From NCBI RefSeq assembly GCF_036014215.1, contig NZ_CP107922.1:217585-281584 (forward strand): a stretch of DNA of 64,000 nt, in the 5' to 3' direction. This DNA comes from Streptomyces sp. NBC_00440. Its GTDB lineage: Bacteria; Actinomycetota; Actinomycetes; Streptomycetales; Streptomycetaceae. Positions 4,771-64,000 of the stretch are shown one piece after another. The notes below the pieces were generated by a model, which did no database searches, was not told the origin of the DNA, and saw only the letters and a list, made by a program, of their open reading frames with translations. Both the position numbers and the translations under genes were made by a program. Each line of letters starts with the position of its first letter. Position 1 is the stretch's first letter.

Positions 4771-4789
4771 CCTGCTGCCTTCCTTGCCT

Positions 4790-5333: not shown

Positions 5334-5489
5334 CCGGGAGGTGGCCGAAGCGGAGGTGAAGAAGAACTGGCCTGTTCGGCCGCGCCGGTAGCCGGCACGC
5401 GGGCGGGTGTCCTGAGGGCGTCTTGCCTGCTACCGGTCCAGGGCGGAAGGATCAGATGCGGACCATCCACAACTGAGGGGGAGAGCACG

Positions 5490-6017: not shown

Positions 6018-6027
6018 CCACACGAGC

Positions 6028-6063
6028 ACGGGCTCCGATCTCTCTGGGGGGATCGGAGCCCGT
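6028..6063 (+). terminator. Strong hairpin terminator
   Basis: ACGGGCTCCGATC (6028-6040) and GATCGGAGCCCGT (6051-6063) form a perfect 13-base-pair stem with a 10-base loop, just after the stop of the gene ending at 6017. The 360 bases from here to the next gene at 6424 contain no supported gene. Confidence 0.75.
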
Positions 6064-6423
6064 CGACGTTTATGGGGGCCGGGGCCACGGTGCCAGCCCG
6101 GCAGCCTGGAACGTTCGTGACTCGGGCTCGCCTCAACCACTCGGCAAAGCTCCACGGAATCGGTTACGGCCTCCGAGGCCAGAGGGCAGGCTTCGTCCTC
6201 CGTCCTCGCGCCGCCGACGAGGTCTGGGCTGATGGCTTCGGCGAGGCAAGTATCGCTTCACGGCCGTTGGCTGAGGCGGGTCATCACCTACCCGTCCATG
6301 CCGGCGGCCGTTGGCACTCCCAGCTGGTGATCTCAAGTACGTGAAGGCGTGAGCGGACCGATCACACCGTGAGAGTGTGAAACCCGTTCATCATCACGCC
6401 AGCACAGGGAAAGGCTCCAGCAG

Positions 6424-48770: not shown

Positions 48771-48889
48771 CCGGGTTATTCGTGAGGTGGGGGTTGCTTT
48801 TCTGCAGCTGTCTCGTTGATGGATTCGGTGGCACAGGGGTTGTTCAGGTGCCGCCTTAACCAAGAGTCATTGCTGGTTGGCGGTGGAGT

Positions 48890-49948
48890 GTGGCGGGGAA
48901 GCCGTTTCTTCGGCTGGTCGAGGGCGGGCTCTGCGGCCCTGCTCCCGAGGCCGGGCAGGTACCCGATGTGTGGGCGTTCCAGGCCCGCTGCGTGCAGGCA
49001 TTCGCCTCGACATGGACAGCGAGAGGCTTCGCTCCCACCACGATCGGCTGCTATACGTCGCTGCTGGAACGGGTGCTGGACCACTATGACCGGCCGGTGT
49101 GGCAGATCGAGCCGGCCGACGTGGACGCGATGCTCCACTCCCTGGTGGTGGCGGGGCGGGCGGCGGGGACCAGACGCCAGTACCTGCAGATGCTCCGCAC
49201 GTTCCTCACCTTCGTCCAGGCCCGCTACGCCACCGAGATCCGCACCCTGTACGGCACCCCGGTGGCCAACCCGCTGGACCGGTTCAACCGGCTGCGCCAT
49301 GTCTTCGACGACACCCCGCGCACCCTGCCGCCCACCGCCGAGCGCCTCACCGCGTTCTTCGCCTTCGCCCGCCAGCGCCTGACCACTACGTCCGACTACC
49401 CGGCCGCGGCAAGGGACTACGCACTGCTGCGCACCCTCTACCACTCCGCTCCCAGAGTGAGCGAAGCCATTCGCTTCGACCAATGCGACGTCCATCCCGC
49501 ACTCGGCCCGACAGGCAAGCTCCACGTCCGATTCGGCAAGGCGGCCAACACCTCGGGACCCCGCCCGAGATGGGCACCCATGCTCGACGGACTGGACCAG
49601 ATCCTCGCCTGGTACCTGGGAGACGTACGCCCCTTCTTCCCCGACACCACCCCGCTGTTCTGCGACGCCCACGGCCAGCCGCTGAAGCCGGACACCGTAC
49701 GCGACCGCCTCTCCCACCTCCTGGACCTGGAAGGCCGCCCCGCAGACGACCGGTTCACCCCGCACGATCTGCGCCGGGCCTGCGCGACCCACCACTACGA
49801 GAAGGGCATGGACCTGCTCGCAGTCCAGCAGCTCCTCGGTCACTGGCACATCGCCTCGACGATGGCCTACGTGCGGCCCTCGCTCACCTTCGTCGAAGAC
49901 GCCTGGCGCCGCGCCACGTCGACCGCCGTCACTAGCCTGGCCGGCTGA
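48890..49948 (+). CDS. Tyrosine recombinase
   Basis: A 352-residue tyrosine recombinase/integrase. An N-terminal SAM-like core-binding domain (about 25-125, FASTWTARGFAPTTIGCYTS) precedes the catalytic domain. Box I Arg lies in SAPRVSEAIRF, box II is TPHDLRRAC (His-x-x-Arg), the late His is in LLGHWHIAST, and the nucleophile Tyr is in MAYVRPS. All catalytic residues are present, so it should be active. It heads a three-gene cassette (recombinase, small HTH protein, zinc-finger recombinase-like protein) that separates the TniB relic from the older helicase tail. The start codon (GTG at 48890) is not certain. Confidence 0.85.
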   Translation: MAGKPFLRLVEGGLCGPAPEAGQVPDVWAFQARCVQAFASTWTARGFAPTTIGCYTSLLERVLDHYDRPVWQIEPADVDAMLHSLVVAGRAAGTRRQYLQMLRTFLTFVQARYATEIRTLYGTPVANPLDRFNRLRHVFDDTPRTLPPTAERLTAFFAFARQRLTTTSDYPAAARDYALLRTLYHSAPRVSEAIRFDQCDVHPALGPTGKLHVRFGKAANTSGPRPRWAPMLDGLDQILAWYLGDVRPFFPDTTPLFCDAHGQPLKPDTVRDRLSHLLDLEGRPADDRFTPHDLRRACATHHYEKGMDLLAVQQLLGHWHIASTMAYVRPSLTFVEDAWRRATSTAVTSLAG

Positions 49949-49966
49949 CCCCAGGGCAGGACACCC

Positions 49967-50326
49967 ATGACCACACCACCCCCTCTGCACGCCGTCGAGC
50001 CCGTGACCCCGCCACCGCAGGTGGAGTGGAGACTTCGGATGACCGCGGCACAGCGCGGTATCTGGACCGGCACCGAACTGCGCCGCCTGCTCGCCGAGCG
50101 GGCCGGCCTCGAGCTGTCTGCGGCATCGGTGTCCGCCCTGTTCACCAAACAGCCCTCCCAGGTGAAGCTCTCCACCCTGGCCGCCCTGTGCGCCGCCCTG
50201 GACTGCACCCCAGGCGACCTGCTTACCGTCGGCGAGCCCGCCATACCCCCACCACCTACACCACGCACCACCCCACCACCTCGACAGCAGCCCGTGCCCA
50301 GCCACCGATCCCTGCCACCGCTGTGA
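49967..50326 (+). CDS. Small Cro/C1-type HTH protein
   Basis: A 119-residue protein with a Cro/C1-type helix-turn-helix at about residues 30-90 (GIWTGTELRRLLAERAGLEL, then LSTLAALCAALDCTPGDLL) and a Pro-rich tail. Its stop overlaps the next start (GTGA). It probably binds the ends or promoter of the cassette and assists the two flanking recombinase-like proteins. The HTH is clear, and the role is inferred from the gene trio. Confidence 0.75.
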   Translation: MTTPPPLHAVEPVTPPPQVEWRLRMTAAQRGIWTGTELRRLLAERAGLELSAASVSALFTKQPSQVKLSTLAALCAALDCTPGDLLTVGEPAIPPPPTPRTTPPPRQQPVPSHRSLPPL

Positions 50327-51891
50327 CCGCACCCCGCCCCGCACACCCCGCGACGGACCCGCCCACGACCACCCGTGCCACACCCTCTCGTGTCAAAGAC
50401 AACTGCCCGGCCTGCCACCGACTGCGCTGGCTGCACCCCGACACCGGCCGCTGCCCCTGGTGCTCACGCACCTGCACCCTCTGCGGCGCACCACGGCGCT
50501 CCGCCCAGGACCTGTGCGCGGCATGCCGACGCCGATCCGCAGGACAACGAGCTCGGGGCCCCTGCCAGCACTGCGGACGCCGACGTGCCCTCGACGCGGC
50601 GACCCAGCACTGCCGAGCCTGTACCGACCCCGCTGCCGCCCCGCCCCCGGCCCACTGCGAGCAATGCGGAACCAGCGGCCAGTGGGCCAAAGGCCTCTGC
50701 AAGCGCTGCTACGAGCATTCACCCCACACCGTCCTGACCCGCGCGGCCGGCTGGGCCAAGCGCATGCCCGCCCCGCCCTCCTGGTGGAGCGGCCTCGCCG
50801 CACACCTCGCAGCGCACCGACACCCGATCTACGCGGCCGACCTCATCGCCACCACCGCGCGCCTGCTCCTCCACGCCGAGTCCTGCGACCCCCGCAGCCT
50901 CCTCGCCCGCGCCAAAAGCGATGCCCCCGAACTCGTCGGAGCGCTCACCGACTTCTTCCGCACCCACGGCCACCTCGACCCACCCCCACCCCCACGCCTC
51001 GCCGACAGACGAGCAACAGAACGCCGATCCCGCCGCATCGAGTCCACACCCGCCCCTCTGCGCTCCCAGACCGAGAAGTTCGCCGCCTTCCTCCTGCTCC
51101 AGCGCGAGCAAGCCGAACACCTGGGGCTACGGCCCAACCAGCTGAAAACCATCGAGATCCGACTCGCAGCCGTCCGCGACCTGGCCCTCCACCTCCACAC
51201 CGAGGGCCACACGAACTGGGCCAGTGTCACCACCGCCCACATGGAATCCTTCCTGGCCCTCAACCCGGCCCTCCGCGCATCCCGACTCGCGGGACTGCGT
51301 CAGTTCTTCGCGTACGCCCACCACGCCAAAGTCATCCTCCACAACCCGACCGACCCCATAACCGCCGTACAGCACAGGGGGTTTCACGGCCCCACCCTCA
51401 CTCTGACCCAACAGCGCACCCTGTACCAGCGGTGGACCACCCACCACGACATCCACCCGCACGAGGCATTCATCGGCCTCGCCGCCCTGCTCCACGCAGC
51501 AACCATCACCGAGCTGCGCCAGCTCACTGACACCGGGATCAACCCCCATCACCACAGCGTCCACTTCCCCGGCAGATCCCTGGCCATCCCGCTCGACGAC
51601 GCGACCTGGACCGCACTCCAACGCTGCCAAGAACACCGACACCAACTCGGCTCGGACAACCCCCACCTGCTCGTCACCCGGCTCACCCGCACCCACCACG
51701 GCCCCGCCGGCGCCGCTCACATCCGCGACACCCTCGCCCCTACCGGCCTCCGGCCCCGCATCCTGCGCTCTACTCGCCTGCTCACCCTCGCCGATGAACT
51801 CGACGCTAAGATCCTCACCACCTCACTGGGGATGTCCTACGCAGGAGTCGCCCACTACCGGCCCAGCCCGAACCTCACCAAGCCAATATGA
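50323..51891 (+). CDS. Zinc-finger tyrosine-recombinase-like protein, catalytically degenerate
   Basis: A 522-residue protein started by GTG at 50323, overlapping the HTH gene. The first 170 residues contain at least three zinc-finger-like CxxC pairs (CPACHRLRWL, CPWCSRTCTLCGAPR, CEQCGTSGQW). The C-terminal 300 residues have the fold pattern of a tyrosine recombinase: a SAM-like domain, then LLHAATITELRQL where box I should be, and LRPRILRSTRLLTLADEL where box II should be, ending LGMSYAGVAHYRP. The box I Arg and the His of box II are missing and the His after LG is Met, although the Tyr may be retained. It is probably a regulatory or DNA-bridging partner of the active recombinase at 48890. 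Confidence 0.7.
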   Translation: MTAPRPAHPATDPPTTTRATPSRVKDNCPACHRLRWLHPDTGRCPWCSRTCTLCGAPRRSAQDLCAACRRRSAGQRARGPCQHCGRRRALDAATQHCRACTDPAAAPPPAHCEQCGTSGQWAKGLCKRCYEHSPHTVLTRAAGWAKRMPAPPSWWSGLAAHLAAHRHPIYAADLIATTARLLLHAESCDPRSLLARAKSDAPELVGALTDFFRTHGHLDPPPPPRLADRRATERRSRRIESTPAPLRSQTEKFAAFLLLQREQAEHLGLRPNQLKTIEIRLAAVRDLALHLHTEGHTNWASVTTAHMESFLALNPALRASRLAGLRQFFAYAHHAKVILHNPTDPITAVQHRGFHGPTLTLTQQRTLYQRWTTHHDIHPHEAFIGLAALLHAATITELRQLTDTGINPHHHSVHFPGRSLAIPLDDATWTALQRCQEHRHQLGSDNPHLLVTRLTRTHHGPAGAAHIRDTLAPTGLRPRILRSTRLLTLADELDAKILTTSLGMSYAGVAHYRPSPNLTKPI

Positions 51892-51988
51892 CGGTCCGAG
51901 CCCGGCGAACCGCTTGAGCTGCTCCTCGCAATGTCTATGTCCACCCAGGCATGGTGCCTTAGCGGTCTCTGGATCACCCCACGCCGTA

Positions 51989-52023
51989 GAGGGTTGCCTC
52001 CCGGCACACGGCAGGCAACCCTC
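51989..52023. terminator. Bidirectional hairpin terminator
   Basis: GAGGGTTGCCT (51989-51999) and AGGCAACCCTC (52013-52023) form a perfect 11-base-pair stem with a 13-base loop. It lies between the convergent recombinase-like gene and the helicase-tail remnant. Confidence 0.7.
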
Positions 52024-52032
52024 CGCCGGAAC

Positions 52033-52377
52033 TCATGCCCAGTCCACGCCCAGCTCCCGCAGTGCGTCCCGCTGCTCCTGGGCGAGCTTCTCCCGCCTCG
52101 ATTTGGTGTTGGAGACCCACACACCGAGCCGGACGGCCACGGGTTCCGTCTCACCGGCGACTGTGATTTCTTCGCTGTGCCCCCTTGGTACTGGCCGGTG
52201 GGCGCCTTCCCGATCGACCCACTGCGCGAGAGCCGTCAGGCCGCGCTGGAATGCCTGCTGCGCCTTGCCCTGGCTCTTCGCCGTGGGCGCGGCCGCCGGG
52301 GCGGGAGAAGGGGCCTCAGCGCCCTTGATGCCCAGCGCGGTCAGCCGCTCGCGCTGCTCTGTGACGGAGTAGTGATC
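52033..52377 (-). pseudogene. Tail of an older TtrA-like helicase gene
   Basis: The last 110 codons match the C terminus of the helicase at 60176-62845 almost end to end: EQRERLTALG here and EQQERLTTLG there, KAQQAFQRGL in both, REGAHRPVPR in both, then LGVWVSNT and the same type of ending before the stop. DNA identity is roughly three quarters by eye. Similarity stops abruptly at about 52377; upstream codons of the open frame are Pro/Arg-rich shadow. So only the 3' end of a helicase-type gene remains, with its missing 5' part on the telomere side, exactly at the inner border of the transposition operon. Confidence 0.8.
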
Positions 52378-52619
52378 TTCAGGGGGTTGGGCTGTTCTGG
52401 TCTGGTGTTCCGTCTTTTGGGGTGGGATTCGGGACGGCTGAAGCGGTTGGGTTCGGGCGTGATGGGCCGGGGCTGGTGAGTGTGTTCGGTTTGGTTGTTC
52501 GGGCTCTTGGCCTGTGGTCCGGTAGTTGTGTGGGATTGATCTTGGTTTTCTTGTAGGTGTGGTGGCACGCCCGTAGGTGGCCGTACCAATGCGCCGGGGT
52601 GGATGGGGACTTGTGCTGG
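52378..52619. other. Putative inner end of the telomeric transposon
   Basis: A G/T-rich stretch without genes. Imperfect repeats of the type GGTTGGGnTTCGGG recur near 52384, 52418, 52444 and 52487 (for example GGGTGGGATTCGGGACGG and GCGGTTGGGTTCGGGCG). A TGTGACGG begins at 52360. It lies between the truncated helicase tail and the last gene of the transposition operon, where transposase-binding sites are expected. The exact border cannot be fixed by eye. Confidence 0.4.
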
Positions 52620-53575
52620 TCAGTGGCGTGTGTGGGTGAGGAAGGCCCGGAGGGGATCGTTCGCGTTGCTGGCCAGGCGGGGCAGTCCGAGTCGGTGGGC
52701 GATGAGGTTGAGGGCCTTGCCGGTGTCGCGGTGTGGCCGGTTCGGGAGGGCGGCGAGTGCGCGGGCGAGGGTGACGGTTTCCGGGTAGGTCACCAGGTCG
52801 CGGGTCAGCAGGGCGGGGGAGGCGTTGCCTGTGGTGGTCAGGTGGGGGTTGGCCTTGCAGAGCCGGGTCAGGCGGGTGTGCCAGCGGTGGGTGAGGTGTT
52901 GCTGGTGGTCGTACCAGCGGGTGGTGATGGCGCGTGCTGCGGTCCAGGCGGTGGCAGCTCGGGGGTGTCGTAGCAGGCGCTGGTGGGGGCGCGATGTGCG
53001 GCGGCGAGTTCGGGCACGCCCTGGATACGGACGCTGGTGGCGAGTCGTGGGTCGGGGGCGGCTTGGTGGTGGCGTGGGCACACCAGCCGGTGCGGCGGCC
53101 GATGAACCCAGGCGGTGTCGGTGGTGCCGTGGCTGCGGTGGCGGGTGCACAGGGCGCAGGCGCGGACGGGCTGCTGCTCGGCATCGAGCCGCTTCCAGCG
53201 CGCGGCGGCAGCGATGTGGTGGGCGTCGTCGGTGGGTACGAGGCGGGGCAGGGCGCGCGTCAGGTGGGGGAGTGGCGTGCGGGTCAGGACGGCGAGGTGC
53301 TGGGTCGCGGTGTGGTTGAGGTGGAGTTCGGCTGCGGGTGGCGTGCCGTGGCGATGGAGGGTGATGTTGGCGCCGTCGAGGAGCTGGGGCAAGGTCAGCT
53401 GGTAGGTGTCGGCGAGGCGTTGGGTGTAGGAGGCGGTTGCTTCGCCGGGCAGTGGCCGTACACGGGAGACGCCCGGTGCGGCTGACGGGATCCGCAGCCA
53501 TGTCCCTGCGGCGACGATGCGCTGTGCAGCAGCGGCCCCTGCCGCGGCGCGGGTTGTGACGTCTGTCCGGCTCAC
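52620..53575 (-). pseudogene. tniQ: TniQ-family protein, frameshifted
   Basis: About 318 residues of a TniQ/TnsD-type target-selection protein in two frames. The N-terminal part (to about residue 195) has the TniQ start (LRIPSAAPGVSRVRPLPGEA) and a zinc-finger pair (CALCTRHRSHG, LVCPRHH). The frame then breaks at a run of five G (52985-52989, plus strand). In the next frame the protein continues HQRLLRHPRAATAWTAARAI to a TGA at 52620. The fused TniQ-HA protein has the same order without a break (VIRAHERLL), which shows that the shift is real relative to the family. The GTG at 53575 overlaps the tniB stop (GTGA). It is either mutated, programmed or a sequencing error in the G-run. Confidence 0.75.
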
Positions 53576-54675
53576 GACGTGCTGGTGTTCCGGCTTCGCG
53601 GCCGGGTGCGGGGTTGGTGGTGCTGTTCGGCGAGGTGGTCGAGGCGGATGGCGTCGAGGGTGGTTTTGGTGATGCGTTCGGTGCCGTCGATGAGGGCGGT
53701 GATGGCTGCTTGGCGGATGAGGCGGGCGAGGCTGCCGATGCGGCCGGCGGTGCGCTCGTGCAGGTACGGGGCCAGCCGGGGGAGGGTTCCGGGCCGGTGA
53801 TGGCGCAGATCCAGTGCGGTTTCCATGGCGGTGATGAGGTCGCGGAAGGGTTCTTCGTCGCCGAGGCGGGCGGGGAAGGGGTCGCAGTCGATGAGGGAGG
53901 CGCGTCCGGCGAGCTGGGCGCCGCGTACGCCGGTGAACAGGGGCGTGGTGGTGACGTCGATGCCGGCATAGACGAAGGTGGCGCCGATGCGTTCAGTGAG
54001 ATCTTTGATCAGGTCGGCGCTCTGGGCGCCGGTGGTGGTGCGGGGGTTGAGCCGGTGGATCTCGTCGATCATCACCAGCTGGACTTTGGCGGCGGTGTAG
54101 GTGTGGCAGACAGCGTTCGTGATCTGGGTCTGGGACATGCCTGTGGTGACGGGGATGCCGAGGTAGCGGGCGAATTCGATGGCGAGGGTCTTGGCGCTGG
54201 CGGCGGGCGGGACCAGGACGTAGGCGACGGGGGCTTGTCCGGCTGCTGCCGTGGCGCCGTGGCGGCGGATGTGGGCGAGGTGGCAGGCGCGGCCGACCTG
54301 GAGCAGGGCGGTGGTTTTCCCGGCGCCGGCGGGACCGGTGACGATGAGGGAGGGCCGGGCAGTGACGGTCTGGTGGCGGCCGAGGATCATCAGGGTGCGC
54401 ACGTTCTTGGCGAGGGCGTCGATGGCGGGGGTGCGCACGGTGACGAACCGCGAGTGGTAGGCCAGGCGTTCCTCGAGGCTGCGGTGCGGTGTGCCGGGTG
54501 GGGGAGGAGCTGCCACGGGTGTGGTGGCGAAGGCCTGGAAGCCGTCCCAGGTGGTCACCGCCTGTGGCTGCGGATCAGGGGCGCCGCCGGCACTTGCCGC
54601 GGTGCCGGGATTCCGGTGCGCTGTCGACGGGCATGGGCCGGCCGGTGCACCGCTCGTGCTCGACGAGGCGTTCAC
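53572..54675 (-). CDS. tniB: TniB/TnsC-type transposition ATPase
   Basis: A 367-residue AAA+ ATPase of the TniB/TnsC group that selects target DNA and activates the transposase. The Walker A motif is TGPAGAGKTTALL with K120, the Walker B motif is LVMIDEIHRL, and a sensor segment follows (GATFVYAGID). A Thr/Pro-rich lead of about 60 residues precedes the core. The GTG at 54675 overlaps the tniA stop (GTGA), and its own stop overlaps the tniQ start. The call is firm; all ATPase motifs look intact, unlike the relic at 47.8-48.8 kb. Confidence 0.9.
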   Translation of the reverse strand: MNASSSTSGAPAGPCPSTAHRNPGTAASAGGAPDPQPQAVTTWDGFQAFATTPVAAPPPPGTPHRSLEERLAYHSRFVTVRTPAIDALAKNVRTLMILGRHQTVTARPSLIVTGPAGAGKTTALLQVGRACHLAHIRRHGATAAAGQAPVAYVLVPPAASAKTLAIEFARYLGIPVTTGMSQTQITNAVCHTYTAAKVQLVMIDEIHRLNPRTTTGAQSADLIKDLTERIGATFVYAGIDVTTTPLFTGVRGAQLAGRASLIDCDPFPARLGDEEPFRDLITAMETALDLRHHRPGTLPRLAPYLHERTAGRIGSLARLIRQAAITALIDGTERITKTTLDAIRLDHLAEQHHQPRTRPRSRNTSTS

Positions 54676-56831
54676 CACTGCTCGGCTTCCGCTTCGGCGT
54701 CCCACAGCCCGTACCCGCCTGCCTCGGGCGGCAGCACGCTCGCGCCCTCCGGCTCGCTAACGTCGGTCTCGTCGGCCGCGGTATCGACACTGATGAGGTC
54801 GTCCAGGCTCTCGCTCCAGTCCGGTGCCGGGGCCGGTGCGGTCTCTGCGTCGAGTGGGCGCCGTTGGCCTGGAAGATCGGGCAACTGTGCTGCCGTACCG
54901 GCGCGGGAGGCTCTCCGACGGCGGGTTTTCTGCTCGGTCTCGGCGGGGTGGCGGGTGCGGCGCAGGAGCTGGTCGAGGGCGTCGGCGAGGTCGGCCTCAT
55001 GCTGCTCCCGGTCCCCGCGTTGTTCGACCTCGGCCTGGACGTGGCGCCAGATGGCGTCGTTGAAGGGCTGGTGGACGTGGTCGCGGTGGATCCAGGGGAT
55101 TTCGTGGAGGTGTCCGTCGGTGAGGCGGACGAAGATCTGGCGGGCGTCGTGGGGGTTGTGGTGGACCTCCCACTTGCCGTCCTTGCTGGTGATGGGGGAG
55201 CGCTCGCTGCGGTGGGGGTCGAGGATGTCGTGGTTGTAGGTGCGGTAGTCGAGGCGGATGCCGCGTTCGGTGATGGGCTGCCAGCGCACGGGCAGCAGTT
55301 CGAGGTAGTCGGCCCCGGTCAGCGGCACAGGCACGTAGCCGCTGATGGTGATCAGTGCGGCCCACATTTGGTTCGGGGTGAGGGCGGTTTTGGGCAGGAC
55401 GGGGTGGCGCAGTCCGTCGTGGGGACGGTTCTGCCAGCCGCAGGTGATCCACTCGTCGAGGAAGTCCTGCAGCTGCCCAATCGTCCAGCGGGCCTCGGCC
55501 GCGGTCTTGGAGCCGCGGCGCTGGGGGTTGGATCCGGTGTGGCCGGCGACGTGCTGGCAGAACAGGTCGTTGATCGAGCCGAAGGTCCGCTCCACCACGG
55601 CCTTGGCCTGCGGCCGTCTCGGTGGAGCGGGCTGCACGTTTACCCCGAGCGTCTCGCAGGCGGCGACGAAGCCCTGCGAGAGGTAGATCTTGCCGCGGTC
55701 GACGACAATCGTCTCGGGCACGATCACCGGCCGCGCGGCCGCGCCCTCCAGGCGCTTGTCCAGCGACAGCATCCGCTCAAAGGGCACTTCGGCCCGCGAC
55801 AGGTGAAGCGAGGTGGGCCAGGTCGGCCGAGCAGGGTGGGGAACAGCCATTTCCGCCAGGAGGAGGGCGGCGTCGACGGCTTTGGTGCTGTGCGGGCGCA
55901 GGATGGCGGCCAGGATGGAGCGGGTGGCGACGTCGACGGCGATCGTCAGCTCCGGCCGGCCCAGGCTGCCGCCCTCGAGGACGGCCATGATGTCCAGACG
56001 GGTGGTGTCGATCTGCACCTGCTCCCCGGGCCGCAGCACCACCGGCGCTGCCGACGAGGCGCGGGCGGGTGCGGTGGCGGTACGCGCGGGCCGACCCGGA
56101 CGATCGGCCGGGTCGGCCAGCACACTCACCAGCCGGTAGAACGACGACCGCGACGGCATCTCCACCACCCCGCGCCCGTGCGTATCCTCCAGGATCTGCC
56201 CGACCAGTACCTGCAGTCCCTTCACCGTTCCCTTCGACCGGCCCCGCTGGCGCCGCAGCGCCTCCAGCACAGCAGCCACGACCCGCTCGTCGGCATACCC
56301 CGTCGGATGACGCCCACGGGCCGGCACCGCACGCTTGTCGACCAGCCCCCACAAACCCTGCTTGCGGTAGGCGTGCCGCATCCGCTGCACCGTCGTAGGC
56401 GTCACCCGGGCGAAGCCGAGCGCTGCCAGTTCCTTCGCCTTGGCCGCGTCCCGCTGCGCCAGCGTCCACCGCTCGGGGTCGTACTCCGGCCGCATCGTCT
56501 GGGCGTCACGGCTGCCCGGGGCATGCGGCAGCCCGGTCTCCACTTCCCGGATATGGGGCAGCCAGGCCAGCGCCCGCTGCTGGGCCGCCACCGGAACGGT
56601 CTCGAACAGTCCCCACTGCGGCACCGCGTCCGGCGCCCGCGCGCCCACTACTTCGAAGCCCGGGTCGGCGAACAACCGCCCCAGCAGCAGGCTCGTTTCG
56701 GTGCCGTCCTCCTGCAGCAGGTAGACCTGCTGGCCCTGCAAGGCGGCGACCTGCCAGGTCTGTCCCCGGTAGGCGACGTGCGCGCCGACCTCCACCACCG
56801 GCCGCGGGCTCCTACCGAGTGTGCTGCCCAC
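54672..56831 (-). CDS. tniA: TniA/TnsB-type DDE transposase
   Basis: A 719-residue Mu/TnsB-class transposase that would join the 3' ends. HTH domains are in the first 230 residues (LAALGFARVTPTTVQRMRHA and so on), then the RNase H-like core with D275 (VQIDTTRLDI), D378 (IVVDRGKIY) and E414 (AKAVVERTF), spaced 36 residues in the last step as usual. A Mu C-terminal beta-barrel region follows, then an acidic tail of about 80 residues that could contact TniB. I prefer the GTG at 56831 (AGGAAGGGG upstream), giving a 20-base overlap with the TnsA-like gene; a longer open frame upstream is a shadow of that gene. The catalytic triad is intact. Confidence 0.92.
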   Translation of the reverse strand: MGSTLGRSPRPVVEVGAHVAYRGQTWQVAALQGQQVYLLQEDGTETSLLLGRLFADPGFEVVGARAPDAVPQWGLFETVPVAAQQRALAWLPHIREVETGLPHAPGSRDAQTMRPEYDPERWTLAQRDAAKAKELAALGFARVTPTTVQRMRHAYRKQGLWGLVDKRAVPARGRHPTGYADERVVAAVLEALRRQRGRSKGTVKGLQVLVGQILEDTHGRGVVEMPSRSSFYRLVSVLADPADRPGRPARTATAPARASSAAPVVLRPGEQVQIDTTRLDIMAVLEGGSLGRPELTIAVDVATRSILAAILRPHSTKAVDAALLLAEMAVPHPARPTWPTSLHLSRAEVPFERMLSLDKRLEGAAARPVIVPETIVVDRGKIYLSQGFVAACETLGVNVQPAPPRRPQAKAVVERTFGSINDLFCQHVAGHTGSNPQRRGSKTAAEARWTIGQLQDFLDEWITCGWQNRPHDGLRHPVLPKTALTPNQMWAALITISGYVPVPLTGADYLELLPVRWQPITERGIRLDYRTYNHDILDPHRSERSPITSKDGKWEVHHNPHDARQIFVRLTDGHLHEIPWIHRDHVHQPFNDAIWRHVQAEVEQRGDREQHEADLADALDQLLRRTRHPAETEQKTRRRRASRAGTAAQLPDLPGQRRPLDAETAPAPAPDWSESLDDLISVDTAADETDVSEPEGASVLPPEAGGYGLWDAEAEAEQW

Positions 56832-57762
56832 TGCGCTCGCCCCTTCCTTGGCTGCCGCCGGCGCCCAGCTGCTTTTCGACGCCCCCACCAATGCGTTCTG
56901 CGTCAGAGCAGACCAGCGCCTCCTCGTGCAGCGGCTCATCAAGAGGCGTCGTCAGATGCCCGCACCACAGCGCGTGATAGACAGCCGGCAGCACTTGCAG
57001 CGGATCGCCTACTGCGGCTGCGCCGCCGGCCAGCGGCCGGGGCCCGGCGAACGCTTCGGCCAGCGTGGCCCGCAGCCCGGGCGGGCCCTGATTACGTGGG
57101 TGGCGGTAGCCGGCCAGCCACCGCAAGTTCGCCGCCACCACCGCTGGAGGTGGCTCAAGGCGCCGGTAAGCCCAGCCCACGCGGGCACACGCCGCCTCCA
57201 GGACCATCCGCGCCCGCTGCGCCCTGTCTGCCCCGGTGGTCGGGCTGGAGGGGCAGTCGGCGAGCAGGCCGGTGCCTTCGGTGTACCGGGCGAACAACTG
57301 AGGCACCCACGAGCGCACCCGCCCGTCGGGATCCCGCCACAGCAGCCGTACCGGACGTGCGGACAGGCCGGTCACGTCCGGATTCCGGTCCAGGACCATC
57401 AGCTGGGTGCGCATTGCTGCCGAACCGTGTACGACGTGCCGTCCGGTGGTCGCCGACCACCACCAGCCCGGCCCCCACCGGCGGCCCGGAACGACCGGAA
57501 ACGCGGATACCGGCGCGAGGTCCTCGAACCGCACCGATGCCGTCGCCTGATCCCACGGCAACTGCGTCAACTGCCCGGCGGCCGTGACGAACGCGGCCTC
57601 GATTCCCGCACCGCCGCCCCCTGCGGTAGCCTGCTGCACCCGCCTGCCGTGCTCGTGCCCCTCCACACTCAACAGCCAAGTGCATGGGTGGCTGCTGAAC
57701 GCCGTGATCTGGATCCGCCACCCGAACGGGTGAACGGCGGCCGCGACGCCGAGCTCCTGCAC
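56812..57762 (-). CDS. TnsA-like protein with substituted catalytic positions
   Basis: A 316-residue protein of the actinobacterial TnsA-like heteromeric transposase endonuclease type. The family core WWWSATTGRHV is followed by LMVLDRNPDV, then a FARYTEGTG segment, and a C-terminal WLAGYRHPRN to FAGPRPLAGG region. In family members as I know them, a Glu follows the SATTG-HV segment, an Asp lies in a HVPDF-type segment and a Lys or Asp in a VDV(K/R)P-type segment. Here these read HGSAAM, SWVPQLF and LLADCPS, so the Glu, Asp and Lys positions all appear changed. It may be a non-cutting structural subunit. It starts with GTG at 57762, only 6 bases after the upstream stop. Confidence 0.75.
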   Translation of the reverse strand: MQELGVAAAVHPFGWRIQITAFSSHPCTWLLSVEGHEHGRRVQQATAGGGGAGIEAAFVTAAGQLTQLPWDQATASVRFEDLAPVSAFPVVPGRRWGPGWWWSATTGRHVVHGSAAMRTQLMVLDRNPDVTGLSARPVRLLWRDPDGRVRSWVPQLFARYTEGTGLLADCPSSPTTGADRAQRARMVLEAACARVGWAYRRLEPPPAVVAANLRWLAGYRHPRNQGPPGLRATLAEAFAGPRPLAGGAAAVGDPLQVLPAVYHALWCGHLTTPLDEPLHEEALVCSDAERIGGGVEKQLGAGGSQGRGERSGQHTR

Positions 57763-57768
57763 CCGTGG

Positions 57769-60159
57769 TCAGACCAGGGAGGTTCTCAGTTCCTGCAGGA
57801 GCCGCTGTTGGCCGGGCAACAAGGCGTGGCGTTGAGCGAGTTGCTCGCTGAACCAGGAGCGCAGCTTGGGCGGTGGTTCGAGGCCGGCGATGAGCAGGAG
57901 ACGCAGATGGTGGTAGTCGCGCTGCCAGGCGAACGCCCACGGAGGGAACCACCACGGATCCAGAGCAGCGAGGGCCTGCATGCCCGGCCACGGAGCCGGT
58001 GTGCGGCGCGCGTGGGCTCCGGCCTCTCCGCGTTTGCTGGTGAGCCACCTTCCCAGCGGGAACCCGTTGTGCTGAACGGGGTGCGGCAGCGCCAGGTGGC
58101 CGTGAACGCCGACGTAGTCCCGGGCATGGGCCAAGCCCACGGCGAAGTCGATCCGGGCGCCGGTGGGGTGGTACCACGCGGTCTGCCTCGCTTGTGCGGC
58201 CTCGGCGGTGACGCCCATCTCCCGCAGTAGATCTTGCTGGCGGGGGTGGAGCTCTTCGAACAGGGCGCACTGCGCGTACAGCCATGATCTGGCAGACGCC
58301 CCCACCCCGGCGAAGCCATCCCCCGGCACCAGCAGCTGATTGCTGCCGCACTGCTTGCGGGCGTGGTGGTAGGCGCGTTGCCATGCCATGGGCCACGGCG
58401 GGTTCCACCACGGGTCGATGGCGGACAGTGCACGGCTCCGGTCGGTTTCCTTCTCCGCCATACGGGCCCGGCTGCGTTGGCTCATCAGCCACTGCCCAAG
58501 AGGAAAACCGTCCTGCCGCGTGCTCTTGGACGTGGCGAGGTGGCCGTGGACGGCGGCAAAGGCTCGGGCGTAGTCCAGGCCGGCCGCGAAGGCCTGAGCA
58601 AGGCTGTTACGGCGAGGGCGTGCTGAGCGGGCGTGCGCGGGCCGGATTCCGAGATCTGCGAGCAGGCGTTGCTGGCCCACGTGGAGGTCGTCGTACCGGG
58701 AACACTGCTCATGGAGCCACTCGCCCAAGGCGAGGCTGGTGCCGGGGAATCCTGCCGTGGCGTCAACGAGGCCATGCTTTTGAACGTGTACCAGGGCGCG
58801 GTGGTACGTCCGTCGCCAGGAGATGGGCCAGGGACCATTCCACCAGGGATCGATGCGATGCAACGCCTGCGCCCGCTCGATGGGGAGCGCTGCTACTCCG
58901 GTTCTCTGATTGGCCAGCCACGGCCCCAGAGCAAAACCCTCGTGACGGCCGTACTTGGGAACAGCGAGATGCCCGTGACGCGCCGCGTAGGAACGGGCGT
59001 GTGCCAAGCCGACCTGATACGCCTGCTCTGCACGGGACTGCCTTCCTCCTACCGGAGCACTGCCGACGTGCTGGAGGCGCAACTCCCGCAGCTGCGCCGC
59101 AAGCCCACGAGGCCGGTGCGCGACCGGAACCGCCCACACCTCTTCCTCGGACACTGCTCCGCGCTCCCGCCGCACACACGCCCGCACCCAGGCGAACAAG
59201 GCTCCTGCACTGGAGGAGGCAAGCTGTTCCACCAGCCACGGGCGGCCCAGACGGCGAGCCAGCTCGGTCAGCAGACGGGGAACCTCGGCCAACGTGTGCG
59301 GCATCTGACCGTGCGTGTCCTCTAATACGCGTTGTCGCCACAACCGGTCACATAGAACCGTCGTGACCGCGACAGCCTCGGGATACGTCACCACGTCCCG
59401 GGCGAGCACCGCCACCTCACCCTCGGGGAGATCGGCACAGACACGACCAAGACGCGCCGGCCAGATCACTTCGTCCCGCCGGCCCGCGTCCCACCAGGAG
59501 GCAACGACCGCCTGGGCCACGGCAAAAGCGCTCTCGCACGAGCCCCTACGGCGCAGCATCGGCAGAAGGCGCTCGTGCGCACGTATCACCTCCGGTAGCC
59601 CGGAGAGGCTCACCTGGCCTTCGACCAGCGTGGCTCTGTCCAGCGCCAGTGAGTCGAGGGACCAGCACTGGTGCCTGATGCAGATCCTTGAACGCAGGTC
59701 GCAGTACAGACGGACAGACCAGGGAGCGCCTGTCCGGGCCGCCGTACACAGACGGCATCCCAGCATGACGGCAGGAACTGTGCTGCCGGAGGCGAAGCGC
59801 ACGTTCGGCTGGTCACCGTTCGCCTTCGCGTCAGCGCCCCCATCCCAGGAAGGCAGCGCGCGGGACAGATGCGACTCCGGCACCTGGCAGAAGGAAGCCA
59901 GCCGGCGCCGCACCGCGGACGCCAGGAACAACTCGCCGACGAGACAGCCCTCTCCCCAGACACCACGCACGCCAGGGCCCGCCATCGCAGACAACAGGCC
60001 CGTCACAGTGACGTTGTAGCGAGAGGCCAGCCGATTCACGAATGACATCGTCGTTTCACCTGCCACCGGGGCCAGCCGGACGACACCGGACACAGGCCAC
60101 GAGGAAAACGAATCCGTCACTTGACACTCCACAGCTTCACCGGCGTGCGCGACCGGCAT
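57769..60159 (-). CDS. TniQ-helicase-associated-domain fusion protein
   Basis: A 796-residue fusion. Residues 1 to about 330 are a TniQ-type domain: SGVVRLAPVAGETTMSFVNR at the start, a zinc-finger-like CRLCTAARTG and ICIRHQCW pair, then VIRAHERLL and LARDVVTYPEAV, as in the short TniQ of this operon. From about 390 to the end there are three repeats of about 145 residues. Each contains a GHLA-type half (HGHLAVPKYG, HGHLATSKST, HGHLALPHPV) and a DPWWxxPWP-type half (at Asp437, Asp582 and Asp734), that is, helicase-associated (HA) units. A similar unit (DPDWNCPWPLDWQRHY) is in the adjacent helicase. I do not know another TniQ protein with HA repeats. It probably selects the target, using the HA units to read DNA. 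Confidence 0.8.
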   Translation of the reverse strand: MPVAHAGEAVECQVTDSFSSWPVSGVVRLAPVAGETTMSFVNRLASRYNVTVTGLLSAMAGPGVRGVWGEGCLVGELFLASAVRRRLASFCQVPESHLSRALPSWDGGADAKANGDQPNVRFASGSTVPAVMLGCRLCTAARTGAPWSVRLYCDLRSRICIRHQCWSLDSLALDRATLVEGQVSLSGLPEVIRAHERLLPMLRRRGSCESAFAVAQAVVASWWDAGRRDEVIWPARLGRVCADLPEGEVAVLARDVVTYPEAVAVTTVLCDRLWRQRVLEDTHGQMPHTLAEVPRLLTELARRLGRPWLVEQLASSSAGALFAWVRACVRRERGAVSEEEVWAVPVAHRPRGLAAQLRELRLQHVGSAPVGGRQSRAEQAYQVGLAHARSYAARHGHLAVPKYGRHEGFALGPWLANQRTGVAALPIERAQALHRIDPWWNGPWPISWRRTYHRALVHVQKHGLVDATAGFPGTSLALGEWLHEQCSRYDDLHVGQQRLLADLGIRPAHARSARPRRNSLAQAFAAGLDYARAFAAVHGHLATSKSTRQDGFPLGQWLMSQRSRARMAEKETDRSRALSAIDPWWNPPWPMAWQRAYHHARKQCGSNQLLVPGDGFAGVGASARSWLYAQCALFEELHPRQQDLLREMGVTAEAAQARQTAWYHPTGARIDFAVGLAHARDYVGVHGHLALPHPVQHNGFPLGRWLTSKRGEAGAHARRTPAPWPGMQALAALDPWWFPPWAFAWQRDYHHLRLLLIAGLEPPPKLRSWFSEQLAQRHALLPGQQRLLQELRTSLV

Positions 60160-60175
60160 AGGGCTCCCACTGCCT

Positions 60176-62845
60176 CTACGCCGCCCATTCCATGCCGAGC
60201 CCCCGTAGCGCGTCCAGCTGCTCCGGGGTGAGCTTGTCGCGCCTCGCGCGGGTGTTCGATACCCACACGCCTAGCTTGACGACCACCGGCTCCGTCTCGC
60301 CGTCAACCGCGATCTCCTCAGCGTGGCTGCGGGGTACCGGCCGGTGGGCACCCTCCCGCTCTACCCACTGGGTGAGGGCTGCCAGTCCACGCTGGAACGC
60401 CTGCTGCGCTTTGCCCGGCCCCTTCGCCGCAGGCGTTGCCGCCGGGGCAGGAGACGGGGTCTCAGTGGGCTGCACCCCCAGCGTTGTCAGCCGTTCCTGC
60501 TGTTCGGCGGAGAACTGTGTCCAGGTGCTCGCTTCTCTTTGCCGCATGAGCCATCGTCCGATGTCGTCGCCCTCGAAGAGCACGCCGGGTTGGATGTCGG
60601 GCAGGTGGCCGTCGGCGTCGGCGAGGTCGGAGAGGACGCGGTAGTGCCGCTGCCAGTCGAGCGGCCAGGGGCAGTTCCAGTCCGGGTCGATCGCCGCCAG
60701 CTGCGCGGCACGCACCGCCGCTCGCTCCGGGTCCTTGCCCAGGCCGTTCTTCTGCCCCTTCCGCCGGAGGTTCGCCAGGTGCTGCCCGATGGGCACCATC
60801 GCCTCGCCCTCGCCCCAGACGGCGTCCTGCCGGGGTGCGAGGTGTCCGGTGGCTCGCCGGTAGGACCGGAACGCGGCGAGTTTGTTCTCCCACGCTTCGT
60901 CGCCGGGTTCCCACACCATCCCGGCGTCGTCGAGGAGCTCCTTGCGGTGGGGGTCGAGTTCGCCTGTGCGCTGGGCGCGGCGTTGCTGGTGCACCCACCG
61001 GCCCAGGGGGTAGTCCTTCGTCACGCCGACTGCGGTCTCGGTGTCGTACGGCACGGCGTACAGGCCGGTGATCTCGTTCTCGGTACGCCAGCGGATGAGG
61101 GCTTGGTAGCCCTCCAGCCAGACGAGGGATTCGGGCCGGATGACGCGGCAGCGGGTCAGAGCAGCGATGTTGGCGGCGTCCCGGGGAGAAGCAAAGTTGA
61201 CCACGACCGAGGTGACCCGGTCGACCTCCTGCTGCGCCTCGTCGCTCGCCTCTTGCCCGTCTCCGTTCTGCGCCCCGGTCGCGGGGGTGGGGCGGACGTG
61301 GATGCGCCGCCGCTCGGCGCCGCGGGTCAGGGCGTGGGAGGCGAGCTGGTCGACCATGCGTTCCGAGTGCGAGCGCAGGGCTTGGAGGATGTCGACCAGG
61401 GGTTGGTAGCTGGCCGAGGCGATCATGTCCTTCGGGTCCTCCTCGGGCTGGAGGAAGACAGGGATGATGATCCGGGCGGTCTTGGTCGTGCCGTCCGGGT
61501 TGGGGCGCAGGGCGCGTCCGATGTTCTGAACGACGTCGACCTGGGAGCTGCGCGAGCCGACGATGCACACGGCCTCGACCCCGCGCAGTCCGGTGATATC
61601 GACCCCGACCCCGAGCGCCCGTACCGAGGAGAGGAACGCCCGGTGTACGCGTCGGTTCTGGGCGTTGATGCCGTTGGCGAACCGGTGGATCACCGCACGC
61701 CGGTGCGCGATGGGATGGTCCCCGCACAGCCAGTCCGCCCATACCCGGTCCGGAGGCACGTGACGGGCCTCCTCCAGCTCGTACAGCTCAGCATCGATCG
61801 ACGACGCGGGCAGTTCCTCCGCCCCGGCCAGCGCCGCCGCGGAGGCCTCGGCGGTATACAGTTCGGCGGCCGTGCGCGGCATCTGCTCGGCGAACGCGGC
61901 CGCCTCCTCCACCCGCTGGTGGAACACCATGGTGGTGTGCAGATTCTGCTGCGCCGCGTGCTCCAGCAGCGCCGCTTGGAGCAGGGCCATGCGCCGGCCA
62001 CGCAGGGTGTCCCCGGACAGGCCCAGGACCGGGTCCGGGTCGCGGATCTCCAGCACGTCGATCTCGAACCCCGCAAGGATCGAGCGTTCCACTGCCTCCG
62101 CCAGACCGAGATCAAAAATCCGGGTGCCGTAGGTGCTGGAGTCATCCTCCATCGACGCGATCACCACCTCCCGGCCGTCCCGCCCGCGCTGCGGCCGGGG
62201 CGCGGCGAGGATCCGCGGGGTGGCGGTCAGGTAGAGCCGGAAGTCGACAGGGATCCGACTGTTGTCGTGGATCGCCGCCCACGGCCGCCCCATGTCTCCG
62301 GCCGTCATGTGCCCCTCGTCCAGAATGGCCAGGTCAAACGGAGCCATCCGCTGCCCGTACAGCCGCTCCCCGCCGGCCAGAGCCGATTCCAACGGCCCAG
62401 GGACAGTCCGGCGACCAGTGACGTCGGCGGGGTCCTCGCGGTCCACGAGGGAGGCGTAGGTGGCGAACACGACCACCGGCCCGGTCCCGGCCCACAGGGC
62501 GAGCTGGATCGGGTTGGTGGTGGTGCGCACTCCGAGCTGCTCCAGGACCTCGTCCTTGTCCACCGAGCAGACTGCGACCATCGGCGCCCGGTGCCCGACC
62601 CGCCGCCAGGACTGGGCACTCTGCACGATCAGGTCCAGCGTGGGCACCATCACCAGAATCCGCCCGCCCGGGAAGTACTCCAGAGCGCATGCAGCGGTGG
62701 TGATCGTCTTGCCGGACCCGGTCGCAGACACCCCCATCGCACGCGCCCCTTCCGGAGGAACAGGCGATCTTGCAGGAAATCCAACCCAGTTACGAAAACT
62801 CAACTTCTGGTCGACCTGGTGTTCCTTGAGCGGAACCAAAAGCAT
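60176..62845 (-). CDS. ttrA: TtrA-like terminal helicase with HA domains
   Basis: An 889-residue superfamily 2 DEAD/DEAH-type helicase. Walker A ATGSGKT has K46, motif II is DEGH (residues 176-179), and a motif VI-like NIGRALRPN follows RSSQVDVVQ. The C-terminal third holds HA units (FRSYRRATGHLAPRQDAVWG, DPDWNCPWPLDWQRHY, and the tail QRGLAALTQWVEREGAHRPV). Its position, starting 1.15 kb from the window end beside the telomere and reading inward, matches ttrA, the terminal helicase gene of Streptomyces chromosomes and linear plasmids, implicated in transfer of linear replicons. I chose the ATG at 62845 (GGGAGGG 7 bases upstream) over a TTG at 62851. Only 16 bases separate it from the TniQ-HA gene. 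Confidence 0.85.
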   Translation of the reverse strand: MLLVPLKEHQVDQKLSFRNWVGFPARSPVPPEGARAMGVSATGSGKTITTAACALEYFPGGRILVMVPTLDLIVQSAQSWRRVGHRAPMVAVCSVDKDEVLEQLGVRTTTNPIQLALWAGTGPVVVFATYASLVDREDPADVTGRRTVPGPLESALAGGERLYGQRMAPFDLAILDEGHMTAGDMGRPWAAIHDNSRIPVDFRLYLTATPRILAAPRPQRGRDGREVVIASMEDDSSTYGTRIFDLGLAEAVERSILAGFEIDVLEIRDPDPVLGLSGDTLRGRRMALLQAALLEHAAQQNLHTTMVFHQRVEEAAAFAEQMPRTAAELYTAEASAAALAGAEELPASSIDAELYELEEARHVPPDRVWADWLCGDHPIAHRRAVIHRFANGINAQNRRVHRAFLSSVRALGVGVDITGLRGVEAVCIVGSRSSQVDVVQNIGRALRPNPDGTTKTARIIIPVFLQPEEDPKDMIASASYQPLVDILQALRSHSERMVDQLASHALTRGAERRRIHVRPTPATGAQNGDGQEASDEAQQEVDRVTSVVVNFASPRDAANIAALTRCRVIRPESLVWLEGYQALIRWRTENEITGLYAVPYDTETAVGVTKDYPLGRWVHQQRRAQRTGELDPHRKELLDDAGMVWEPGDEAWENKLAAFRSYRRATGHLAPRQDAVWGEGEAMVPIGQHLANLRRKGQKNGLGKDPERAAVRAAQLAAIDPDWNCPWPLDWQRHYRVLSDLADADGHLPDIQPGVLFEGDDIGRWLMRQREASTWTQFSAEQQERLTTLGVQPTETPSPAPAATPAAKGPGKAQQAFQRGLAALTQWVEREGAHRPVPRSHAEEIAVDGETEPVVVKLGVWVSNTRARRDKLTPEQLDALRGLGMEWAA

Positions 62846-62881
62846 TTTCAAGCCCTCCCTAATACTTGTCCCTGATGTCTT

Positions 62882-63571
62882 TCAGAGGGCCGCGTGCGGA
62901 GTGCAGGCCGCGCCCGAGTCATTCCAGATCGACGCATCCGCCTTGTGCCAGCCGCCGGGCTTTCCGTCTTTGAAGGGAGGCTTGTCGTCCGGGTCGTAGT
63001 GGCCGGCATTGAGTGTGCAGACGACGTAGTCCCCGTCGCTGTTCACGGTTCGCGCGGTGCACAGAGCGCCGGCCTCGCCCAGCGCCGCCAGCACCCGGCG
63101 CCACTGCGTGGTGTTCGGATGCGTGCGCGGCAGCACAGTCCCCCGGACGAACCTCTCCAGCCGAACAAGGTCCGACCGCTCACGCCGCCTCACGCCCGCC
63201 AGATGCACGGCCAGCTCAGCGGCCCCGGCCGACCTGCCGGCACGCCGGGACCAGTCACGGTCCGCGATGCCCACCAGGGCCTCGCTCACGGCCGTTACGC
63301 CTTCGTCCCAGCCGTTCTCGAAGACCGGGCCCCGGCAGGCCGGCGCCATGCCGTCCAACTCGACCACCTCGCCGGCGGCCCCGGCGACCGCTCCGGCCTC
63401 CAGGGAGGCCAGCAGGTCGTCCGCCTCAGCCGCGGGCACGCCCTGCGCCTCCAGGAGCGCGAACAGCTTCAACCGGGCGTTGGTGCCCGCCGTCTGATAC
63501 TGGCTCACCCTGCGCACAGAATCGCTGCTCAGCGCGGGGCCCGTTCCGATAGATTCGCTGTGACCAGTCAT
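62882..63571 (-). CDS. Subtelomeric protein of unknown function
   Basis: A 229-residue soluble protein, the outermost gene and the first of the inward-reading operon. The N-terminal half is helical (RVSQYQTAGTNARLKLFALL, EAGAVAGA, FENGWDEGV) and shared with the TGA-interrupted gene at 46497-47309. The C-terminal part has two possible metal-binding clusters (CTARTVNSDGDYVVCTLNAG with His nearby, and CTPH near the end). GAGAGGAA lies 9 bases upstream of the ATG. It is 36 bases ahead of the helicase gene. No known family; a telomere- or transposition-related role is suggested by position only. Confidence 0.7.
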   Translation of the reverse strand: MTGHSESIGTGPALSSDSVRRVSQYQTAGTNARLKLFALLEAQGVPAAEADDLLASLEAGAVAGAAGEVVELDGMAPACRGPVFENGWDEGVTAVSEALVGIADRDWSRRAGRSAGAAELAVHLAGVRRRERSDLVRLERFVRGTVLPRTHPNTTQWRRVLAALGEAGALCTARTVNSDGDYVVCTLNAGHYDPDDKPPFKDGKPGGWHKADASIWNDSGAACTPHAAL

Positions 63572-63605
63572 CGACGGGCCGTTCCTCTCGAATATTAAGG
63601 GGTCT

Positions 63606-63668
63606 CTGGGCGACTGTTGGGTGTCCTATATTTTCGCCAACGGTACATGCTGCATCAATTTGATGCAG
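63606..63668 (-). promoter_or_regulatory. Promoter region with palindrome for the telomere-proximal operon
   Basis: CTGCATCA-ATT-TGATGCAG (63650-63668) is a perfect 8-base inverted repeat. On the minus strand it overlaps TTGATG, a candidate -35 box, and about 18 bases later lies the AT-rich AAAATATAGG. This is the most AT-rich spot in the last 5 kb. It is a likely promoter of the seven-gene operon with an operator over the -35 region. Confidence 0.55.
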
Positions 63669-63721
63669 CGATACACTAGAACCCACACGAACGAGCGACC
63701 CCTCCTCCTTGCAGCCAGCCC

Positions 63722-64000
63722 GGCCCGCGTCAGCGGGCCTTGAGGCCCTGGAGGCGAAGCCGGAGGGGCCGTTGGGCGGGGGAGCGCAGCGGACCCGCTT
63801 GGCCAGGTTGGAGCGCAGCGGAAACCTGGCCACTTGGGCGCAGCCCAAGGAGGCTCGGGAGCGCAGCGGACGGGCCGTCAACCATCCCGCGCAGCGGGAT
63901 GGTTGCACAGTGGCGCAGCCACTCGTTGGCGCTCACGCGGAGCGTGAGCGCAACACCAGGCGCAGCCCGGGTGTTCGCTTGCACATCGCGCAGCGATGTG
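63722..64000. other. Archetypal Streptomyces right telomere (outermost palindrome not included)
   Basis: Successive foldback palindromes, most with GCA loops: GGCCCGC/GCGGGCC (63722-63739), GGCCAGGTT/AACCTGGCC (63801-63831), CTTGGGC-GCA-GCCCAAG (63833-63849), a perfect 12-base stem around GCA (63879-63905), AGTGGC-GCA-GCCACT (63909-63923), GCGCTCACGC-GGA-GCGTGAGCGC (63929-63951), an imperfect ACACC/GGTGT hairpin (63953-63974) and CACATCGC-GCA-GCGATGTG (63982-64000). Read inward, this matches the archetypal telomere, whose first palindrome begins CCCGCGGAGCGGG. Only that terminal palindrome is missing. The ACACC hairpin lacks one base relative to the archetype as I remember it. These structures serve telomere patching with the terminal protein. 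Confidence 0.92.

Follow-up and report, generated by a model that had tools for sequence, protein, structure and literature searches.

Telomeric transposons, Tn7-like ones included, were reportedly found by Hsieh et al. in 2025 in Streptomyces and cyanobacteria; they are said to have one transposon end, the telomere being the second boundary. The outermost gene of Streptomyces replicons is usually a ttrA-like helicase gene. This work is centred on a stretch of 64,000 nucleotides from Streptomyces sp. NBC_00440 (the window), whose outer part, 52360-64000 on the minus strand, is very probably a Tn7-like transposon with a sole transposon end on the inner side and a telomere as the other boundary, which enters ttrA-like helicase genes at one fixed site in their 3' part. 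This one-ended, telomere-bounded and ttrA-aimed reading is based on the copies of the element, the same-codon junctions, the empty sites and the lack of a second end on the telomere side.

Excerpts of PMC8743542 and PMC9195940 present ttrA as a terminal helicase gene, and telomere exchange is suggested in the former. In excerpts of PMC7205883 telomere replacement is explained by recombination, and both there and in the excerpts of PMC8743542 the fast turnover of Streptomyces ends is ascribed to homologous recombination. As regards the transposition genes, the excerpt of PMC7188733 places a TnsA-like transposase among the transposases near the right terminus of a Kitasatospora megaplasmid, and in that of PMC9045324 TnsA-like genes are named only in an assembly comparison. 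A literature search restricted to part of the journals found no report of ttrA-targeted or tyrosine-recombinase telomeric elements in Streptomyces.

Copies, boundaries and target site of the Tn7-like element

The window corresponds to positions 217585-281584 of contig C2, a linear plasmid of the Streptomyces type, which has 281,584 bp, so window base 64000 is the contig end; contig C1 of the same genome, the chromosome, has 8,402,968 bp. Telomere palindromes are found at 63690-64000, and the outermost window bases match, minus about 16 nt, the start of S. uncialis contig L014, which we take to be the archetypal Streptomyces telomere. A 1-kb probe from the TnsA/TniA region has three identical full-length matches in this genome: one at each end of C1 (C1-left and C1-right) and one, the window copy, where C2 ends on the right (C2-right). 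The remaining four probe matches are of 36-66 bp each, and no further full-length copy was detected in the genome with this DNA probe or with a TniA search at E<=1e-60. The element 52360-64000 occupies three of the four ends of the genome. One Tpg gene that scored above the cut-off is located on C1, about 98 kb from the right end and outside the element. At the level of sequence comparison, one end, a telomere boundary, same-site junctions, empty sites and three copies in one genome can be considered established.

At window positions 63832-63982 the copies of the end differ by small indels within the palindromes, and C1-right is devoid of the last 18 bases; both features are likely to reflect assembly limits at telomeres. 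The idea that the assembly pasted a single end sequence onto several contig ends draws on the difficulty of assembling long identical terminal repeats and on the clustering of the few copy differences in the telomere palindromes. Nevertheless, the independent assemblies of L014 and of the K. papulosa linear plasmid L093 show an identical junction, and empty sites of other strains agree with the flanks up to 3 bases from the end, which makes such an artefact extremely improbable.

The inner end of the element, TGTGACGGAG at 52360, belongs to a conserved non-coding transposon end (52360-52620) that closes with CCGTCACA when read from the telomere to the inside, and that is conserved across 10 aligned elements. 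The preliminary description had proposed a transposon that uses the telomere as one end, and this proposal is supported by three copies with the same junctions and by empty sites; its arrangement, telomere outside and transposon end inside, stands as well, but the inner end has to be moved from 52378 to 52360 according to the junctions and the empty-site alignment. A second end in the telomere-proximal region, which would have spoken against that proposal, was not found: in the outer 1.15 kb the best match reaches 21.1 bits, within the range of 60 shuffles (mean 20.3, maximum 26.8). The presence of one end only could also be expected if a Tn7-like transposon of the ordinary, two-ended kind had been deprived of its outer end by arm breakage and then capped with a telomere. 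This history is very unlikely, since three genomes agree in gene order, telomere distance and end, and since close TniA relatives are mostly terminal, although no systematic search for two-ended close relatives was made.

Inboard of the transposon end, the window contains what is left of an older ttrA-like helicase gene, its last 108 codons (52033-52359, minus strand), a target scar recognised from its translation, which is 73% identical to the C-terminus of the element's own helicase, and from an intact allele in plasmid locus L099. The pieces inboard of the window copy and of the C1-right copy come from the 3' parts of two distinct TtrA-like helicase genes. Their mutual identity is about 75%, and their identity to the element's own helicase is 77-79%; the comparison of the two junctions thus places the element at the same codon of two different ttrA alleles, with a 2-bp offset. 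Related to this, the seven genes of the element are found in the same order and with the same junction in S. uncialis L014, at a contig end with telomere-type sequence, and in L093, beside a telomere, where the junctions enter the last 107 codons or so of a ttrA gene. In total, five copies in three genomes have entered four distinct ttrA targets (C2-right/C1-left, C1-right, L014 and L093) at the same codon, with a 2-bp wobble. Occurrence beside other telomeres, and of strains with and without the element at the same site, had been put forward as checks, and both were found. The right end of the NBC_00455 plasmid (L099) is 98.0% identical to the inboard side of the window over 3602 bp, has an intact ttrA and aligns up to 3 bases beyond the element's end, and an NBC_01217 plasmid end (L175), also with ttrA intact, is 96.6% identical to the inboard side of C1-right over 3354 bp, the alignment ending within about a base of the element's end.

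These junctions bear on another explanation, in which ends were exchanged between ttrA genes by homologous recombination or break-induced replication and the transposition genes were passengers. Telomere exchange by recombination has been proposed in the excerpts of PMC7205883 and PMC8743542, and C2-left (L011) resembles such a case: its outer 3.4 kb is identical to window 60619-64000 except for one indel, whereas over the inner 420 bp or so of the helicase gene (window 60201-60618) identity is only about 80%, which results in a chimeric helicase. It is likely that this outer part was joined inside the end's own helicase gene, near 60619, by homologous recombination, that is, by a crossover within ttrA. 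However, of the 83 positions that differ between the window and C1-right, 79 lie in 52036-52358, none in 52359-63831 and 4 in the telomere palindromes. Divergence therefore reaches to 1-2 bases from the transposon end in spite of the adjoining 323 bp of related ttrA, and the junctions of L014 and L093 have the identical position. Homologous exchange is thus unlikely overall; as the origin of the Tn7-like junctions it was rejected in view of the sharp, same-site breakpoints, and it was kept for C2-left.

Operon and relatives of the Tn7-like element

The seven genes all lie on the minus strand, in the order of the preliminary description. The inward operon proposed there, with gaps of 36, 16 and 6 bases followed by overlaps of 20, 4 and 4 bases, agrees with the ends of the open reading frames, the candidate starts (ATG 63571, ATG 62845, ATG 60159, GTG 57762, GTG 56831, GTG 54675 and GTG 53575) and the family matches. 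The telomere-proximal gene (62882-63571), of unknown function, is conserved beside the TtrA-like helicase; its protein is 80-83% identical to those of L014, L039 and L046 and has no match in NCBIfam, Pfam or PHROGs. It is followed by the intact TtrA-like helicase with four HA stretches (60176-62845; PF04851, PF00270, PF03457) and by a TniQ-HA fusion (57769-60159) composed of a TniQ domain (PF06527, 28.3 bits with a cut-off of 27) and four HA stretches (PF03457, 140.7 bits).

The next genes encode a TnsA-like endonuclease subunit (56812-57762; NF033179, 281.9 bits with a cut-off of 110), a TniA/TnsB-like DDE transposase (54672-56831; phrog_310, a PHROGs transposase family, 153.1 bits), a TniB/TnsC-like ATPase (53572-54675; PF05621, 53.5 bits) and the N-terminal part of TniQ (52868-53575; PF06527, 42.5 bits); the TnsA-like endonuclease, the TniB/TnsC ATPase and a TniQ protein are hence encoded together in one operon. 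The identity of TniA rests on PHROGs and on the motifs D, D and E (residues 275, 378 and 414, counted from GTG 56831), because its Pfam matches (rve 29.5, Mu-C 18.9) are below the Pfam cut-offs. The C-terminal part of TniQ runs on in another frame to 52620, owing to 2 extra bases (52988-52989) in a run of C that were seen against both relatives compared (L093 and L014). The same insertion is present in all three genome copies, so that the frameshift is either real or a shared assembly error.

Close relatives are mainly terminal. A TniA search of plasmids gave 3,465 records, the best 40 of which were used; 34 of these are on plasmids >100 kb with identity >50% (H2, H4, H19, H25, H38 and H39 being left out). 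In 32 of the 34, TniA is within 30 kb of a plasmid end, compared with 5.3 expected, and 31 of the 32 read inward. Contig loci (79, the best of 116) include 31 on contigs >100 kb, where the end of a draft contig need not be a telomere; the locus edge is at most 20 kb from the contig end in 14 of the 16 with TniA identity of at least 54%, and in none of the 15 below this value. A mostly internal location, which would have told against the preliminary description, is therefore not what these close loci have. In a search of 61 genomes, TniA matches of lower identity are often internal, and 9 of 150 genomes of the genus, counting the present one, encode a TniQ-HA protein at E<=1e-100. In the small linear plasmid L094, a Tn7-like relative carries genes for a DarT-like protein, an ADP-ribosylglycohydrolase and a 3'-5' exonuclease between the HA protein and TnsA (4012-7783), possibly as defence cargo.

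As for the targets of relatives, the frame past the element end in L016 and L020 resembles, by eye, the last codons of an HA-type helicase gene. Longer helicase pieces are found inboard in L026, L036 and L098, and weaker ones in L095 and L070/L071. The HA domains of TniQ-HA may be linked to the HA-coding target. In L057 (14566-15542), the end of a relative is located immediately ahead of a second TniB-like gene (67%), which may point to one element nested in another.

Several observations weigh against a one-ended, ttrA-aimed transposon. Transposition is deduced here solely by comparing sequences, and a single flank offers no comparison for a target-site duplication. A repeat search of the 300-bp end gave no repeated TnsB-type sites, the conserved blocks being seen by eye only. 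The frameshift of one TniQ in all three copies may mean that the window copy is partly inactive, unless the run of C contains an assembly error. Regarding location, 4 of the 8 plasmid records at 60-80% identity are outside the best 40; TniA lies 145 kb (H28) and 57 kb (H35) from the plasmid end and has the opposite direction in H33, and the contig loci L033 and L056 are 31 kb and 292 kb from the contig end. Besides, no helicase reading frame was seen by eye at the junctions of L017, L022, L057, L094, L019, L025 and L023, and L096 and L097 carry the flank of L017; because of these family junctions the targeting of ttrA can be regarded as firm in the seven-gene lineage alone.

The older end entered by the transposon

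Three results go beyond the preliminary description: the target is a ttrA gene, the genome has three copies of the element, and the end that was entered, from 48762 outward, looks like a second telomere-bounded element, which would be moved by the tyrosine recombinase that it encodes and would enter AAA ATPase genes behind their Walker B codons. The inner part of this older element (48762-52032, plus strand) is included in the 98.0% match to L099 over 3602 bp and has a second copy at C1-left. Its genes, all on the plus strand, encode a XerC/D-like tyrosine recombinase (48890-49948; PF00589, 81.7 bits) with the R, HxxR, H and Y motifs, a small helix-turn-helix (HTH) regulator (50039-50326, placed by offset from L099 10476-10763 and translated) and a 375-aa partner protein (50764-51891, from alignment), annotated as an integrase in some relatives (L103, L110). 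A 621-aa open reading frame was rejected as the partner gene, since relatives are annotated from the equivalent of 50764. The partner was also considered as a second tyrosine recombinase, like TnpB of the Tn554 type, but gained no support in this role: no tyrosine recombinase was matched among solved structures, and a profile comparison with the recombinase gave 2.6% probability, which is not significant.

Just inboard, an AAA ATPase gene (47958-48761, plus strand; PF13401, 37.2 bits) is truncated at the junction, directly behind Walker B (LDDAQRLSPPV). From about 48758 onward, C1-left and C2-right have 15.2 kb in common, a part that contains the XerC-like recombinase, the HTH protein, the 375-aa partner and the ttrA scar; inboard of about 48758 there are two different AAA ATPase genes, each cut just after Walker B. 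Empty sites of the older element were found in L135 and L136 (one ATPase) and in L137 (another), and the empty site of C1-left is the other ATPase, the second one, in L135 and L136. Of 18 terminal-type loci, which are only in part independent, 16 have the Walker B junction; L107 and L114 (one element on two plasmids of one strain) do not have the DEAQ codons.

For the recombinase, the best 40 of 120 plasmid records were listed; 13 records reach 60% identity, 12 of them among those listed. All these 12 lie within 40 kb of a plasmid end and read outward (2.4 expected within 40 kb), whereas below 60% identity 9 of the 28 listed are within 40 kb (8.2 expected), 3 of the 9 reading outward. On chromosomes, one relative of 65% identity lies 64 kb from the contig end and one partial relative of 77% lies at 23.6 kb, those of 52-54% being mostly elsewhere. 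The distant, mostly internal relatives L109-L112 have another target. The usual terminal order is cut ATPase, recombinase, HTH, partner, cargo, ttrA (reading inward) and telomere. No Tn7-like genes are annotated outboard at the terminal recombinase loci, among which L105 is without an annotated helicase and L104 and L108 are without annotation, nor did a search find such genes outboard in L099, L100 and L103.

The 3' halves of ATPases 1 and 2 were not found outboard in any of the 10 copies searched, so the older element shows no two ends inside one split gene. The 5' half of ATPase 2 has a weak 56-residue match outboard in L100, L101, L113 and L116 (36%, E 6e-5). The ATPases split by the tyrosine-recombinase element belong to ATPase - DDE transposase - ATPase modules, which are located about 3-15 kb from linear-plasmid ends (L135 12239-15909, L137 10228-14025, L136 6283-9928 and L096 3179-7180) and perhaps represent one more kind of terminal mobile element. 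In L100 (9108-10175, residues 534-890 matched) and L113, ttrA is cut elsewhere, with an ABC-three-component system and a new ttrA outboard, perhaps another telomere replacement.

Between the Walker B codons and the older element there is a 15-bp block (48747-48761), the equivalent of which differs among sister plasmids with near-identical surroundings. Flank A has block 1 in NBC_00455 and NBC_01023 and block 2 in NBC_00466; flank B has block 2 in NBC_00466 and block 1 in NBC_01023. To two decimals, identity is complete across 300 bp of flank in the sister plasmids and, between NBC_00466 and NBC_01023, across the first 5 kb of the element. Block 1 occurs natively in ATPase A, where L135 has it unchanged and L136 with a single difference, and block 2 agrees with ATPase B at 13 of its 15 bases in L137. 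From the swapped blocks on the same flanks and from their native ATPases, it seems that the arm moved between plasmid ends, in opposite directions, and took a 15-bp piece of the donor gene with it, the switch being located in GAGGCACAGCGC. Such carry-over is not universal, because the copies of the window genome each hold a block of their own, that of C1-left being near-native.

This last fact is also consistent with gene conversion between two inserted copies, instead of site-specific recombination, having moved the block, and both ends of NBC_00466 and NBC_01023 hold the element, so that conversion tracts could reach the edge of homology. Against this, the switches of two sister plasmids have opposite directions and share their position in the Walker B codons, the recombinase encoded by the element has its catalytic motifs, and the junction recurs at Walker B in the 16 of 18 loci mentioned above. 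Gene conversion is a serious alternative, though the less probable one.

Proposed mechanism and comparison with known systems

Insertion of the Tn7-like transposon at the fixed ttrA site would remove all the outboard DNA, and the replicon would gain a new arm with a fresh helicase, a fresh telomere and the transposition genes. The ttrA site would be read by TniQ or TniQ-HA, and a two-ended substrate might arise when two telomere-bearing copies join or pair, as is said to be the model of Hsieh et al. For the older element, the opinion is evenly balanced on whether it constitutes an independent second telomeric class, in which one site suffices on linear DNA and a single reciprocal crossover with a Walker B site swaps whole arms. 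The crossover would take place between the element's inner site and the Walker B site in an ATPase gene of another replicon, and telomere, ttrA and cargo would move without a second end or a circular intermediate.

The tyrosine-recombinase element and the Tn7-like telomeric transposon appear to be stacked here, each targeting genes carried by terminal mobile elements. The history may have begun with a tyrosine-recombinase end with ttrA present, into whose ttrA the Tn7-like element entered; the composite would then have come to lie in two different ATPase genes at C1-left and C2-right, and the Tn7-like element would have reached C1-right in another ttrA. No recombinase gene was found within 7 kb inboard of the element at C1-right.

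These results suggest that the ends of linear bacterial chromosomes can be replaced by nested mobile elements. Telomere replacement becomes testable as a programmed process, because the breakpoints are sharp, recur across species and adjoin transposition genes or a recombinase gene, and because empty sites were found for both kinds. For a Tn7-like system whose TniQ-HA protein is unusual, the results define a target, 108 codons before the end of ttrA; they also give a simple picture of how a tyrosine recombinase could move a one-ended element on linear DNA, and successive ttrA scars would be a readable record of past telomere replacements.

Concerning known systems, the telomeric transposons of Hsieh et al. 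are said to combine, like the present element, one transposon end with a telomere boundary. Tn7 at attTn7, as it is usually portrayed, is similar in having TnsA, TnsB, TnsC and a targeting protein of the TniQ family, and in entering a conserved gene at one fixed position of its 3' part. Unlike Tn7, the present element is one-ended, truncates its target and replaces all outboard DNA; its target is a telomere helicase gene, of which it carries its own copy. Tn554-type and other tyrosine-recombinase elements are in turn reputed to share with the older element the tyrosine recombinase, a fixed site in a conserved gene and the carrying of a short donor sequence. The older element differs from the Tn554 type in having a telomere at its outer boundary, in a split gene that is not resumed outboard with its 3' half, and in a partner that is not provably a recombinase. 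Finally, telomere exchange between chromosomes and linear plasmids, in the excerpts of PMC7205883 and PMC8743542, has the same outcome, arms and telomeres common to plasmid and chromosome; recombination is invoked in those excerpts, whereas here the ends of mobile elements mark the breakpoints.

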